The translations under genes and the position numbers were made by a program. From Anaerolinea thermophila (GTDB lineage: Bacteria > Chloroflexota > Anaerolineae > Anaerolineales > Anaerolineaceae): a stretch of 64,000 nt of DNA. The notes beneath the pieces were generated by a model, which did not search any database, was not told the DNA's origin, and worked only from the letters and a program-made list of their open reading frames with translations. This document shows, piece by piece, positions 1 to 24,370 of the stretch. The DNA is taken from positions 314,509-378,508 of the forward strand of contig NZ_DYHZ01000003.1 in assembly GCF_020723905.1 (NCBI RefSeq), written 5' to 3'. The number at the start of each line of letters is the position of its first letter. Within the stretch, counting starts at the first letter, position 1.

Positions 1-84
1 AAGGTGGGGGTATCCGTCGGGGTGGCGGTGAAGGTTGGAGTGAAGGTGGGGGTATTCGTCGGGGTGGCGGTGAAGGTTGGAGTA
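1..84 (-). repeat. 42-bp tandem repeat coding a Thr-Pro linker
   Basis: Two adjacent 42-base copies (1-42 and 43-84) differ at only a couple of positions. Read on the minus strand they encode a 14-residue unit of alternating Thr, Pro, Phe, Ala and Asp (pattern TPTFTATPTDTPTF). The array continues off the window, so its copy number is unknown. Such linkers usually space domains of secreted proteins and vary in length by slippage. Confidence 0.9.
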
Positions 85-998
85 GGCGAAGGGGTTGCAA
101 CACTACCACAAGATTCAATAGTGGTAGATAGGGATACAGTTCTGGAGCCCTCTGGTTGATAAACCCACGTGAGACTAAGCGTATGCGCTCCAAAAGAAGA
201 AGTGGTAACCAGCACTGTCTCGAAAGCATTAATTATGCCGCTTCCTGTAATGGTTCCGTCCAATACCCATGTAAATACCTGATTGTCAATCAAATTATTG
301 TTATTGGTAACGTACCAGTTAATGCCGTTATCAGTGCAAACGTAACTCAATCTCAAGTAGGTTTTACAGGGTTGGGTTGTTGGAGAACTGGTAGAGAATT
401 CCCCATCCACATATAGCGAAACCGAGTTTGCGCTGCTTGAGGTAATAAACTGAGCAAAGGAATTGGCTCCAACCGATCCTGTGCCGGTTTCACCCAAGTC
501 TGTCACCCAGGTGAAATTCACTGAGAAAGCATTGGGATTGAACACCTGCCATAACTGGGTGGTGTCTTCTACATATCCACAAATTGGGGACAGATTCAGA
601 ACTGGAGCGGCTTGAATCACCGGCGGGACAAACAGGGTAACTCTCGGCTGGAATGTAGATTGAGATACTGGCAGGGATGTAGCCTGAGGGATAGCCGTTG
701 CCAGTTGGACTTCCGTTGGGTTTGGAACACTGCTAAATGGTGAGGGGGATGGTTGGGTTTGCTCTCGAGAAGGAATACGAATGGGAGGAACTTCTAAAGG
801 GGTTAACGTCTCATCACCATCGTCACCTGTTTGTTCGGTAGGAAGTTCGATGATATTCCCTGAAAATTTTCCAGCAGGACCTGTATCTGATGCCAGAACA
901 GGTTGACTGAGGATGCTGAGAAACATCCCGACGAGTAATAACAAAATTCCTGATGTATTAAACATCCGCCCAATGGATTGTCTTTTTGATTGGCTCAT
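1..998 (-). CDS. Thr/Pro-rich exported surface protein (partial)
   Basis: The frame stays open from an ATG at 998 to the window edge, so the C-terminus is missing (332 codons seen). The start follows a GGAAGGA ribosome site about 10 bases upstream. The first ~38 residues form a signal peptide: basic SKRQ, a hydrophobic Leu/Gly-rich core, then a VLA-S cleavage-like site. A low-complexity Pro/Ser/Thr stretch follows, then a globular Asn/Thr/Ser-rich region of roughly 180 residues with beta-strand-like alternation (two Cys pairs possible), then a Thr-Pro repeat linker at the window edge. This looks like a cell-surface or extracellular protein whose functional domain may lie off the window. Its transcript carries a structured leader (1016-1094). 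Family not recognised. Confidence 0.8.
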   Translation of the reverse strand, partial: MSQSKRQSIGRMFNTSGILLLLVGMFLSILSQPVLASDTGPAGKFSGNIIELPTEQTGDDGDETLTPLEVPPIRIPSREQTQPSPSPFSSVPNPTEVQLATAIPQATSLPVSQSTFQPRVTLFVPPVIQAAPVLNLSPICGYVEDTTQLWQVFNPNAFSVNFTWVTDLGETGTGSVGANSFAQFITSSSANSVSLYVDGEFSTSSPTTQPCKTYLRLSYVCTDNGINWYVTNNNNLIDNQVFTWVLDGTITGSGIINAFETVLVTTSSFGAHTLSLTWVYQPEGSRTVSLSTTIESCGSVATPSPTPTFTATPTNTPTFTPTFTATPTDTPT

Positions 999-1015
999 TG
1001 CCTGTGTCCTTCCAT

Positions 1016-1094
1016 AAAAAAACCGACCTGCTTTGATCAGGCCGGTTTCGCTACTGGCTCCCTGTATATTCCGCTCTGGTAAGAGCAAGCGACC
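1016..1094 (-). promoter_or_regulatory. structured leader with terminator-like hairpin (copy 1)
   Basis: Read on the minus strand, GGTCGCT (1094-1088) can pair with AGCGA plus CC of a conserved AGCGAAACCGGCC block, enclosing a GCTCT/AGAGC hairpin. The same ACCGGCCTG block can instead pair with CAGGTCGGT to make a hairpin running into seven or eight T residues, 10-20 bases before the ribosome site of the exported protein. The two pairings exclude each other, which is the logic of a transcription attenuator or riboswitch. A near copy lies at 2026-2100. I could not match it to a riboswitch class I know; ligand unknown. Confidence 0.6.
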
Positions 1095-1148
1095 AATTTT
1101 AAAATATACAGATCAAGGCTTCCTATAATAATGATAATTTCTATCCTA

Positions 1149-1177
1149 ATCGTATCGTAAAAAACCAAAATAGTCAA
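1149..1177 (-). promoter_or_regulatory. promoter of the exported protein
   Basis: On the minus strand TTGACT (1177-1172), a 17-base spacer and TACGAT (1154-1149) form a sigma-70-type promoter. The predicted start near 1142 gives a leader of about 140 bases that contains the whole structured element. Confidence 0.6.
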
Positions 1178-1230
1178 CTGCTTCCAAAGCGAAAACTGCT
1201 TCAAACAGGTAACCGCAATGGAGTTGATAT

Positions 1231-1992
1231 TTACCGGGTGATCATGAGTTTGTATCCCAGACGATCAATATTTTGAATCAGTTCGGAAGATTGGACAACG
1301 CTACCTAGTTTTTGCCGGAGCAGGTAGATCAGGTATTTAATCCGGTTTCGAACCTGAGGCGAGTCCTTACCCCAGACTTCTTCGGCAATGGTTTTGTAAT
1401 GAACAACCTCTGGTGCGTGTTTTGCCAGGCATGCCAGAATGGCAAACTCCTTGCCGGTAAGTTGGATGTGTTTTTGCTGGTAAATCACTTCCTGCGTGGT
1501 GAAGTTAATGATTAAACCTTCATGGGGGAAGACTAACCGATCGGATTGTTTGGCAGGGCGGGCACGACGAAGTACAGCCTGAACACGGGCTACCACTTCG
1601 GCATTTACAAAGGGTTTGGTAATGTAGTCATCCATTCCAATACGGAGAGCCCTGACCACGTCTTCTTTGTTATGGATTGCAGAAATAACAATAACAGGAA
1701 CATCGGTTGCTTCACGTAAGTATTGATACGTCTGCCAGCCATCCATTTCTGGCATCATTAAATCCAACAGGATGAGGTCTGGATGAATATCCATGCACTT
1801 TTGAATGGCTTCATATCCATTGACCGCACTTAAGACATTATAGCCTGCCATTCGCAAAATTTGCTTGAGCAGGAAAACCGTGTCTGGCTCGTCTTCAACC
1901 ACCAGAATAGTCTGTCGGGAGGCTTTGGTGATCTCGTCGAGGTCAATCCCTGGTTGTGTTTGGTCCAGTGGTAATGTAACTGGTTCATTCAT
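1231..1992 (-). CDS. PhoB/OmpR-type response regulator
   Basis: A 253-residue two-domain regulator. The receiver domain (about 28-145) has the acidic pair E33-D34, phospho-acceptor D77 in LLDLMMPEMDG, a Ser at the switch position and K127 in the TKPF motif. The C-terminal winged helix (about 155-252) has the LTGKEF and RNRIKYLI motifs of DNA-binding OmpR-family proteins. I chose the ATG at 1992 because a GGGGAG site lies about 13 bases upstream; an in-frame TTG at 2028 would lie inside the leader hairpin. No histidine kinase is adjacent, so it is an orphan regulator here. Its leader carries the same element as the neighbouring exported protein, suggesting shared control. Confidence 0.88.
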   Translation of the reverse strand: MNEPVTLPLDQTQPGIDLDEITKASRQTILVVEDEPDTVFLLKQILRMAGYNVLSAVNGYEAIQKCMDIHPDLILLDLMMPEMDGWQTYQYLREATDVPVIVISAIHNKEDVVRALRIGMDDYITKPFVNAEVVARVQAVLRRARPAKQSDRLVFPHEGLIINFTTQEVIYQQKHIQLTGKEFAILACLAKHAPEVVHYKTIAEEVWGKDSPQVRNRIKYLIYLLRQKLGSVVQSSELIQNIDRLGYKLMITR

Positions 1993-2025
1993 AGGCTCTT
2001 TTCCACTCCCCTTTTTAGAATTGAA

Positions 2026-2100
2026 CAAACCGGCATCCCCGGCCGGTTTCGCTATTGACTCCCCACAGAACTTCTCTGCCTCTCTGACAGATGAGCGACC
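2026..2100 (-). promoter_or_regulatory. structured leader (copy 2)
   Basis: On the minus strand this shares with copy 1 the 5' GGTCGCT strand, the block GGGAGnCAnTAGCGAAACCGGCC and a 3' GCCGGTTT strand able to form the alternative hairpin. The internal hairpins differ in sequence (CTGTC/GGCAG and CAGA/TCTG) but keep a stem-loop at the same place. No T-run follows the 3' hairpin, so control, if any, may be at translation or transcript stability rather than termination. It lies 34 bases before the ATG of the response regulator. Confidence 0.55.
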
Positions 2101-2163
2101 ACACTCATCCTGTGGATTAACGTCGCCTCGGAAAGTTTGTTGTTATGATACTGTGATGATTAT

Positions 2164-2368: not shown

Positions 2369-3079
2369 ATGACCATTCAAACTGTTCCCGCTCAGATTGT
2401 GGAGTGGCATGCTTATCTGGATGAATGGCTGGCACAATTGCCCGTTTTGCACGCCCGGGATGTATTTGAAAATTCTCAGCAATGCGCAATTGTGTCGGTC
2501 GATGTCATCAATGGATTCTGCGCGTTTGGTCCACTTGCCAGTCCTCGTGTAGCGCGAATTGTGAAACCTATTGTTTCACTGTTTCAAAAAGCCTGGGATC
2601 TGGGAGTACGCCATATTGTCCTTACTCAAGATACCCATGAACCGGATGCTGTTGAATTTGCCCAATGGCCTCCCCATTGTGTTCGCGGTACGGCGGAAGC
2701 GGAGCCAGTGGATGAATTCAAGACATTACCATTTTTCCCTCACATGGTTCAGATTCCCAAAAATTCAATTCATTCAGGTTTAAATACTCCCTTGAATGAC
2801 TGGATACAGGCTCATCCTGAAGTAGATACATTTGTCGTGGTTGGCGATTGCACCGATCTATGTACGTATCAATTAGCCATGCATCTCCGTTTGGATGCTA
2901 ATGCCCGTCAATTGAATCGCAGAGTGATTGTGCCAGTGGATTGTGTGGATACATATGATTTACCGGTTGACGTGGCTCGATCGCAAGGACTGATGGCACA
3001 TCCAGGCGATGTTTTTCATGTCATGTTCCTCTACCACATGGCGCTGAATGGAATTGAGGTTATCCAAAAAATCGACTGA
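2369..3079 (+). CDS. isochorismatase-family cysteine hydrolase, nicotinamidase-like
   Basis: A 236-residue protein of the isochorismatase/nicotinamidase fold. The catalytic triad expected for the family is visible as D45 (in VDVINGF), K131 (in IPKNS) and C165 (in DCTDLC). The D88-x-H90 and WPPHC motifs match the metal site of PncA-type nicotinamidases, which convert nicotinamide to nicotinate in NAD salvage. The N-terminal ~35 residues are longer than in compact PncA. It has a strong AAGGAGG site, its own promoter and a terminator, so it is monocistronic. Nicotinamidase is the favoured assignment, but other amidases of this fold cannot be excluded. Confidence 0.8.
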   Translation: MTIQTVPAQIVEWHAYLDEWLAQLPVLHARDVFENSQQCAIVSVDVINGFCAFGPLASPRVARIVKPIVSLFQKAWDLGVRHIVLTQDTHEPDAVEFAQWPPHCVRGTAEAEPVDEFKTLPFFPHMVQIPKNSIHSGLNTPLNDWIQAHPEVDTFVVVGDCTDLCTYQLAMHLRLDANARQLNRRVIVPVDCVDTYDLPVDVARSQGLMAHPGDVFHVMFLYHMALNGIEVIQKID

Positions 3080-3130: not shown

Positions 3131-3223
3131 GTTGCAGGAATATTACAACCTTTTAGAAACTGCTAAAACATGTTTTCATTATGCAAATTAAGTTTAGAAT
3201 TATTACTAGAAAGTAGTTTTGCG

Positions 3224-4030
3224 ATGGACATCGAGAAAATTTCTTTGGAAATCCGTTCACTCTTAGTAGAAGACAACCTCGTGAACCAGCGAGTTGCCAT
3301 GATGATGTTGCAAAAAATTGGTCTCCATCCTGACCTTGTTGGAGAAGGTTATCAGGCTTTAAGGTTGGTTAAAGAAAAAGCCCTGATTGAAAAGAACCCA
3401 TACACGATCATTTTTCTGGATATATTTTTGCCGGATATTGATGGACTGGAAATCTCTCGATTGATTCGTGCCGAACTTCCAGTGAAGGATCAACCCTTCA
3501 TTGTTGCTCTGACTGCAGATGAATCCCCTGAGAACCGGCAGCGGTATCTTGAGGGGGGAATGGATGCAATTCTCATTAAGCCTTTGAAAATGCCAGAGTT
3601 GCTGGAGGTCTTGAAGGTTTTTCAGGGCAAGAGGCTTATGAAGCAAGGAGTGGAAGGTACCGACTGGCGGAACAGCCATGAAGTTCTCAATAAATCCACT
3701 TTCCTCAAATGGCAGGAGATGCTGGGCGGTAAAGAGAATTTCCGTAATGTAGTGAATATTTATATCCGAGACGCTTGTTTTTTATTAGAAGGGATAGAAA
3801 AAGGTGCGGTGGAAGAAAACTGGAAACTGGTCCATCGAAATGCCCACACCCTGAAATCTACCAGTGCTAATCTCGGGGCCCTGGGATTGGCTTCAGTTTT
3901 GGAAGAATTGGAACTGGTTGCTTACGAGAACTTGACCGGCGATTTCTCCCGTCCGGTTGCAGAGTTAATTCATCAGGCAAGGGACTGGCTGAACAAGGTG
4001 CTTGAAGAACTGCAGGATTACGTTCGATAA
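3224..4030 (+). CDS. receiver-Hpt phosphorelay protein
   Basis: The N-terminal receiver domain (about 9-135) opens with LLVEDNLVNQ, as in receiver domains of hybrid kinases, and has D66 (FLDIFLPDIDG), T97 and K119. A histidine phosphotransfer domain follows (about 160-265) with H208 in AHTLKSTSANLGA, the classical Hpt motif. No DNA-binding or kinase domain is present, so it looks like a phosphorelay shuttle, detached from its hybrid kinase. The start is uncertain: ATG 3224 fits the conserved domain edge, while an upstream ATG at 3170 would add 18 poorly conserved residues; neither has a strong ribosome site. A terminator follows. Confidence 0.85.
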   Translation: MDIEKISLEIRSLLVEDNLVNQRVAMMMLQKIGLHPDLVGEGYQALRLVKEKALIEKNPYTIIFLDIFLPDIDGLEISRLIRAELPVKDQPFIVALTADESPENRQRYLEGGMDAILIKPLKMPELLEVLKVFQGKRLMKQGVEGTDWRNSHEVLNKSTFLKWQEMLGGKENFRNVVNIYIRDACFLLEGIEKGAVEENWKLVHRNAHTLKSTSANLGALGLASVLEELELVAYENLTGDFSRPVAELIHQARDWLNKVLEELQDYVR

Positions 4031-12637: not shown

Positions 12638-12711
12638 TGGGCGGAACAGGACTCGAACCTGCGACCCCATCCTTGTAAGGGATGTGCTCTAACCGACTGA
12701 GCTATCCGCCC
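12638..12711 (-). tRNA. tRNA-Val (anticodon TAC)
   Basis: A full cloverleaf reads on the minus strand: acceptor GGGCGGA/TCCGCCC, D-stem GCTC/GAGC, anticodon stem CATCC/GGATG with loop CTTACAA, T-stem around TTCGAGT, discriminator A. The 3' CCA is not encoded, so it would be added by the nucleotidyltransferase encoded at 54169-55701. Confidence 0.97.
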
Positions 12712-24298: not shown

Positions 24299-24370
24299 CG
24301 CGCCTGCCGAGACTCGAACTCGGGCTTCCACCTCCGGAGGGTGACGTGATATCCACTTCACTACAGGCGC
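24299..24370 (-). tRNA. tRNA-Arg (anticodon CCG)
   Basis: On the minus strand: acceptor GCGCCTG/CAGGCGC, D-stem GTGA/TCAC, anticodon stem TCACC/GGTGG with loop CTCCGGA, T-stem CCGAG/CTCGG around TTCGAGT, discriminator G. The 3' CCA is not encoded. Confidence 0.96.

Follow-up and report, generated by a model that had tools for sequence, protein, structure and literature searches.

Two leaders of the c-di-GMP-II clan with a GAA pocket before a surface-protein gene and a response regulator gene in Anaerolinea thermophila

The locus and its two leaders

The window, by which we mean the whole stretch of 64,000 nucleotides analysed here, carries two related leaders on its minus strand, each ahead of a gene of a different kind (Table 1). 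A 100-N gap adjoins the window to the left of the copy 1 target (L150 3169-5507). Past the gap lies a frame with Thr/Pro repeats whose end carries the sorting signal IIPVTG, then a hydrophobic stretch and Arg residues; a sortase gene (PF04203, 6.3e-26) comes next. On the plus strand, an isochorismatase-like hydrolase (2369-3079) and a receiver protein with a probable Hpt part (3170-4030) were recognized by eye from their translations. Two tRNA genes lie on the minus strand (12638-12711 and 24299-24370).

Table 1. Coordinates of the two leaders, their parts and their target genes in the window (pseudoknot numbering mapped by eye)
Feature	Position	Strand	Remark
Copy 1, c-di-GMP-II clan aptamer with GAA pocket (P1, P2, P3, extra hairpin, pseudoknot)	1031-1132	-	
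Copy 1 pseudoknot 5′ strand GGUCGCU (G38-U44)	1088-1094	-	
Copy 1 pseudoknot 3′ strand AGCGAAACC with A68, A69 and A70	1044-1052	-	
Copy 1 intrinsic terminator, 5′ arm = aptamer 3′ strand	1014-1049	-	-17.4 kcal/mol, z -6.6
Copy 1 target, Thr/Pro-rich protein with signal-like N terminus, off the left edge of the window	1-998	-	ATG by eye
Copy 2, c-di-GMP-II clan aptamer with GAA pocket	2032-2136	-	
Copy 2 pseudoknot 5′ strand GGUCGCU	2094-2100	-	
Copy 2 pseudoknot 3′ strand AGCGAAACC	2045-2053	-	
Copy 2 terminator-like hairpin, weak, with broken U-rich tail	2016-2049	-	-11.9 kcal/mol, z -1.4
Copy 2 target, response regulator with winged-helix output	1231-1992	-	PF00072 2.9e-30, PF00486 2e-17; ATG by eye

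The original prediction had described these leaders as a duplicated, attenuator-like element that could not be placed in a riboswitch class. It had their places and strand right, and the two shared words that it named, GGTCGCT and the block GGGAGnCAnTAGCGAAACCGGCC, were found in each leader. Its intervals (1016-1094 and 2026-2100) are too short for whole elements and miss the 5′ strands of P1, P2 and P3. Each leader contains a 14-base word, TAGCGAAACCGGCC, that is found nowhere else in the 64 kb (plus-strand 1040 and 2041). GGTCGCT lies upstream of it in each case (1088-1094 and 2094-2100) and is also present at two further places in the window; its partner is AGCGAAACC, with which it pairs as a pseudoknot. 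A promoter scan, with 5 sites against 2.8 expected, was uninformative.

Searches with Rfam models assigned the leaders to a known clan. Copy 1 scored 44.9 bits against c-di-GMP-II-GAG (RF03169), above the gathering cut-off of 40, and 51.8 bits against c-di-GMP-II (RF01786), below the cut-off of 53.5. Copy 2 scored 34.1 bits against RF01786, also below the cut-off (both RF01786 matches were obtained at an E-value threshold), and is absent from the RF03169 matches at the gathering threshold, so that it falls short of that cut-off as well. The genus-free model (R2), a covariance model for which 24 sequences were taken from genera other than that of the host, matched copy 1 at 79.9 bits (E 2e-22) and copy 2 at 60.5 bits (E 2e-16) in the 64-kb window, with no third site there up to E 10. 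Because this model finds just these two sites in the window, the repeat is read as a duplicated riboswitch. The same match rules out that copy 2 is a chance likeness or a product of decay.

The original prediction had itself counted an Rfam match against novelty. Given the matches to RF03169 and RF01786, a new riboswitch class is therefore ruled out; the pair of riboswitch-like leaders itself stands. Judged from sequence, the riboswitch class is one known already, and the GAA pocket pair described below is a form that Rfam does not separate.

In the whole genome, RF01786 matched four sites (two in the window, one on contig C1 and one on contig C2), and the genus-free model recovered the same four copies, with its next match at E 0.38. 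The other two copies scored 51.6 and 45.8 bits against RF03169, above the cut-off of 40. Within a set of 61 relatives, RF01786 matched 34 genomes, 3 of them above the cut-off; in f1, the host genome's family within this set, 28 of the 37 genomes searched had a match. The genus-free model matched 42 of 298 genomes in a class-wide draw, those copies being mostly untyped.

Fold, pocket and sister forms

Both leaders have the architecture of the c-di-GMP-II clan (CL00127), in which P1, P2 and P3 are joined by a pseudoknot from the loop side of P3 to the strand before P1′. Two alignments were used to examine this fold. A free MAFFT alignment was made of 33 sequences, namely the four own copies and 29 from as many other genomes; in it, the 21 pairs of the named structure were paired in 96.1% of cells, and sliding the partner strand reduced pairing to 32-42%. 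Double changes were seen in 15 of the 21 pairs against 10.3 in shuffles, and 0 of 500 shuffles reached 15. The second alignment comprised 104 distinct rows (105 matches from relatives and the own genome) fitted to a model built from 33 of its sequences. Here 95.0% of cells were paired, 15 of 21 pairs were again double-changed, and 449 double-change cells were counted compared to 129 in shuffles. The 7-bp pseudoknot (GGUCGCU with AGCG-A-ACC) was paired in 99.4% of cells in these rows. Double changes were found in all four helices, and the P1 core, P2, P3 and the pseudoknot covary strongly.

Covariation across relatives had been proposed as a check of the original prediction, and the stems do covary over the 104 distinct sequences. 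The hint of covariation that it had seen in a stem kept despite differing sequence was borne out by P3, which has 8 pairs and covaries. The intervening hairpin that it had noticed is an extra stem 3′ of the pseudoknot 5′ strand, and its sequence and length vary. In P1, 26 to 32 of 33 sequences keep the inner three pairs, compared to 9 to 20 for the outer eight. Tandem GAA aptamers before one gene were observed at several loci, with three at L014 and two each at L010, L017, L106 and L122. One partial match (L146) was excluded from typing and from the counts of genes and terminators.

The leaders share with c-di-GMP-II (RF01786) the P1, P2 and P3 helices, the pseudoknot, the GAG bulge and the A69-A70-CC-G core, as well as a terminator platform and targets among surface proteins and regulators. 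Apart from their scores below the cut-off, they differ in three respects. First, pocket pair 40-68 is U-A here, not G-C. Second, the window copies insert the extra hairpin between the pseudoknot 5′ strand and P3′. Third, P1 is well conserved here only in its inner three pairs.

An excerpt of PMC7288161 lists the ligand contacts in structure 3Q3Z as A13, A14, U37, G39, U60, A61, C68, A69, A70, C71, C72, G73 and A74. Position numbers were mapped onto the leaders by eye, with A13, A14, U60, A61 and A74 left unmapped. The names GAG and GCG appear to denote positions 39, 68 and 69. In the Infernal output, the canonical consensus reads UGGGCAC and GUGCAACCG and that of RF03169 reads CGGuCGCC and GGCGAGACCG, while copies 1 and 2 read UGGUCGC and GCGAAACCG, that is, GAA. 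In both copies contact C68 has become A and its partner G40 has become U, and contacts U37, G39, A69, A70, C71, C72 and G73 are retained. Judged by these positions, the pocket is unlike both the canonical and the GAG form, a feature that the original prediction had no means to see.

The same pocket prevails among the 61 related genomes. GAA with U40-A68 was found in 102 of 104 typed copies, own copies included, and GTA with A40-U68 in the other two (L025 in G022 and L091 in G033); the canonical GCA pocket was found in none of these 104. Neither window copy has the canonical RF01786 pocket (G39, C68, A69, G40-C68). The A68 and G69 of RF03169 are not found together either, since A69 stands in both copies and in all 104 typed relatives, and the C68 and G69 that the name c-di-GMP-II-GCG implies are replaced by A68 and A69 in both. 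Compared to c-di-GMP-II-GAG, the window copies share A68 and the GGUCGC/GCGA strands, and copy 1 passes the cut-off. However, GAG copies have G69, mostly C37, and C40 or U40. Because the window copies keep A69 and U37, the GAG name does not fit them, and GAG membership is ruled out in spite of the score of copy 1. We know of no proof of the ligand of c-di-GMP-II-GAG itself.

Among 60 matches taken from other families, a set in which two aptamers appear twice (L062 and L068 overlap), there were GCA, GAA and GAG copies, one GTA copy and a few GGG copies with C40-G68, and a third set of 62 matches, 50 of them typed by script, held the same kinds. The 105- and 60-row sets were typed by alignment columns, with position 40 or 39 gapped in some rows; typing by regular expression left 8 of 105, 4 of 60 and 12 of 62 rows unassigned. 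Pair 40-68 thus occurs as G-C, U-A, A-U and C-G, all four Watson-Crick pairs, which offers a clean test of ligand choice on one scaffold. In the host's order, a genome from the phylum search (G130) carries a canonical copy (L158) beside a GAA copy (L157), a copy of another (G177, L164) looks canonical at position 40, and a third (G271, L159) has one GAA and one GTA copy. At least six GAA copies from other families or f12 have C40 or A40 facing A68 (L052, L160, L168, L176, L177, L183), so compensation at 40-68 is not universal outside the main set. Most GAG copies place C40 opposite A68, and most combine C37 with G69.

Two further observations concern these sister forms. A possible second covarying pocket pair, U37-A69 to C37-G69, was seen in GAG loci (L038, L036, L043 and others), and the GAG copy L050 has a target in common with GGG copies (C40-G68), the identity reaching 79%.

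Among the Rfam 15 matches obtained, GAA has no separate model and is filed under the c-di-GMP-II-GAG name. Most f1 GAA copies stay under the c-di-GMP-II cut-off; elsewhere some pass RF01786 (L259, L268). GAA rows may already have been noted by Weinberg et al. 2017 (PNAS), and the GAG and GCG names stand in lists of models in the portion of PMC12452182 consulted.

Target genes and switching

The other two aptamers of the genome precede genes for exopolysaccharide enzymes. The copy on C1 is upstream of a hexapeptide acetyltransferase gene (NCBIfam WcaF and WbbJ matches, below their cut-offs) and also precedes a gene that reads by eye as a glycosyltransferase. The copy on C2 is upstream of an exopolysaccharide polyprenyl glycosylphosphotransferase gene (TIGR03025, 2e-103, above the cut-off). 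The 105 matches yielded 96 distinct proteins encoded downstream, picked by script and some possibly wrong, and these were scanned; two rows (L115, L139) had no downstream ORF. These proteins included 22 response regulators with Trans_reg_C, 4 sugar transferases and 4 hexapeptide proteins. The remainder belonged to scattered families or had no match, many with signal-like N termini by eye, and some were clearly of another sort, e.g., an amino-acid kinase and a glutamate-type dehydrogenase. An IPVTG-type ending was found in 10 of 43 distinct complete non-regulator targets of at least 150 residues. Twenty target regulators are 43-71% identical to the response regulator of the window, and in 7 genomes (L150, L098, L093, L130, L027, L014, L122) separate aptamers precede a regulator gene and an adjoining surface-protein gene, the arrangement seen in the window.

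The suggestion of a regulon over unlinked functions held, with regulators, surface proteins and exopolysaccharide enzymes among the targets; it extends over four target genes in one genome and across the family. Anaerolineaceae are abundant filamentous or biofilm-forming bacteria of digesters and sediments. Among the entries listed by a literature search for c-di-GMP riboswitches together with Chloroflexi or Anaerolineae, no paper had this topic in its title or the start of its abstract. In a survey of riboswitches by phylum, the consulted part of PMC12452182 gives Chloroflexota as enriched in riboswitches overall.

A comparable regulon is known in C. difficile. According to the portion of PMC11477304 consulted, its class II targets include two adhesins (CD2831 and CD3246), the response regulators CmrR/T (CmrRST) and type IV pili, and its class II riboswitches are transcriptional ON switches save Cdi2_1, which acts on translation. 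Set beside that account, the present leaders agree in being class II switches, predicted here to be ON, before adhesins and response regulators; they differ in their exopolysaccharide genes, in phylum and pocket, and in that no pilus operon is among the four targets.

The T-run ahead of the ribosome site of copy 1, in which a terminator had been suspected, is real, and the hairpin there is stable (Table 1). Terminator folds were also found at L002 (-24.1 kcal/mol, z -7.1) and L003 (-19.2 kcal/mol, z -3.8). Counted over 103 of the 105 matches (L146 and one row failing the motif or length rule were left out), the 5′ arm of the terminator starts 0-12 bases past G65 in 74 of 103 relatives; one has a terminator further downstream, and 28, copy 2 included (terminator score 16.4, threshold 18), have none by the rule used. 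By comparison, about 1% of 515 shuffled regions showed a terminator at the aptamer 3′ strand. The alternative pairing proposed originally is borne out as one between terminator and aptamer, whose strands overlap in these 74 relatives.

These features suggest how the leaders may work. Binding of c-di-GMP, the proposed ligand, would let P1 and the pseudoknot hold the aptamer 3′ strand, with G38 G39 U40 C41 G42 C43 U44 pairing with A64 G65 C66 G67 A68 C71 C72. An ON switch is predicted because the strand held in this way would block the terminator, so that the gene would be transcribed. Without ligand, the same strand would serve as the 5′ arm of the terminator and transcription would stop. The hairpin of copy 2 may be weaker, leaky or active on translation. 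High c-di-GMP would then yield the response regulator, the surface protein with its sortase signal and, at the two other loci, exopolysaccharide enzymes, an output that would amount to a surface-attachment programme. With a probability of roughly three in four, both leaders are ON riboswitches of the c-di-GMP-II kind with a covaried GAA pocket pair, most likely acting by transcription termination; we infer the ligand, the sign and the physiology from the patterns described.

Control of translation, or mixed control, is a possible but minority reading, at least for copy 2. Here the ligand would mainly free or mask the ribosome site and the terminators would be secondary, which is compatible with the same ligand. 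The broken U-tract of the copy 2 hairpin, with its z of -1.4, points this way, as do the 28 relatives that have no terminator by the rule and the one in which it starts further downstream. Against it, overlapping terminators are found in 74 of 103 relatives compared to about 1% in shuffles, and copy 1, L002 and L003 each carry one.

Ligand of the GAA pocket

The original prediction had named a second messenger as its best guess, in agreement with c-di-GMP as proposed here. This ligand is favoured by the kinds of GAA targets, which resemble the C. difficile class II set, and also by the Halanaerobium curli loci and the subtilase shared with a class I riboswitch that are described below. The own genome has 16 GGDEF matches, and all 13 of the domains readable at the Hypr position have Asp there. 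Enzymes that make cGAMP (Hypr type) carry Ser at that position. A PilZ search of the own genome gave no match. Among the 61 genomes, GGDEF counts are higher in those with a riboswitch (medians 15 versus 5, p 6e-5). However, within the family and with genome size held fixed, the correlation is 0.07 (p 0.69), and the link to cyclase counts is therefore used weakly. One DisA-type c-di-AMP cyclase was matched in the own genome; its presence says little, because 55 of 61 relatives have a match.

Variants GAG and GCG are thought to have changed ligand specificity. For the GAA pocket, a changed specificity (e.g., for 3′,3′-cGAMP, c-di-AMP or linear pGpG) with fold and platform unchanged is unlikely. 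It draws on contact C68, listed in the excerpt of PMC7288161: no typed copy of the family retains it, and A takes its place in 102 of 104 typed relatives. It also draws on the near-universal c-di-AMP cyclase matches. Furthermore, different pockets can occur side by side in a genome, as three genomes of other Chloroflexota (G234, G258, G332) each hold GCA and GAG copies; of the copies in G234, the GCA one lies before an HD-GYP-type protein and a GAG one before an unrelated protein without a Pfam family. On the other side, pair 40-68 has changed in the family with compensation (from G40-C68 to U40-A68 or A40-U68, with C40-G68 in some GAG-like copies), U37 and A69 are retained, and the targets are c-di-GMP-like. 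In addition, Ser was read at the Hypr position in 0 of 13 own GGDEF domains, and riboswitch matches are absent from the 7 of 61 genomes that have no more than one GGDEF match, 5 of which do have DisA.

Comparisons of targets count against the c-di-GMP reading or are neutral to it, as canonical, GAG and GAA targets share almost no homologs. L181 is the GAA protein in all 16 shared pairs that link GAA with canonical targets; it is an HD-GYP-type protein with 30-36% identity to canonical targets and lies 531 bases from its own aptamer. GAA and GAG targets gave no homologs at E 1e-8. Canonical GCA copies of other Chloroflexota are upstream of HD_5 (HD-GYP-sort) proteins in 13 of 16 scanned. It was also observed that canonical copies (L072, L081, L065 and others) lie about 230-290 bases ahead of MASE9-HD-GYP type proteins.

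In a pattern scan of named genomes, the GAA copies among the matches listed came from Bellilinea, Longilinea, Leptolinea and other Anaerolineae. Outside Chloroflexota, GAA copies among the matches listed stood in records titled Dactylosporangium, Acidimicrobiales, Streptomyces, Halanaerobium and others, and 15 of the 19 loci so titled among the matches listed pass Rfam for the clan at the place of the pattern. The other four (two Hornefia, one Hyphomonas, one Verrucomicrobia) failed Rfam and were set aside, the genus-free model weakly matching three of them. In Halanaerobium saccharolyticum (L259 93-3208), a GAA aptamer is upstream of a Curlin-repeat gene, CsgF and CsgG, and a second GAA copy in Halanaerobiaceae is upstream of two Curlin-repeat genes. 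It seems improbable that GAA and GTA together form a separate specificity class, one that has replaced the canonical form in the family, recurs in these Actinobacteria and Halanaerobium records and reads a different or additional dinucleotide. If it did, the surface-attachment regulon of the group would answer to another messenger.

That the leaders are plain attenuators or bind a protein, with a riboswitch likeness by chance, is in effect refuted by the Rfam clan match, the genus-free model matches and the 104-row covariation, with its paired pseudoknot and double changes in all four helices.

Class I c-di-GMP riboswitches (RF01051), whose fold is unrelated to class II according to the portion of PMC12452182 consulted, offer a further comparison. 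RF01051 has no match in the own genome and matches in 28 of 61 relatives. Of 71 class I places, 40 were examined, 38 with a downstream ORF, and L385 was left out as too short. In Halanaerobium saccharolyticum, a class I riboswitch lies about 270 bases past CsgG, ahead of the next gene. One of these 38 targets, L394 (G034), is a subtilase 75% and 69% identical to the GTA targets in G033 and G022; judged by sequence, two c-di-GMP classes have been exchanged on a single gene here, and the exchange concerns GTA, not GAA. Beta-helix proteins stand under both kinds of aptamer in G020, and the one under GAA (L111) shares about 31% identity with the one under class I (L375).
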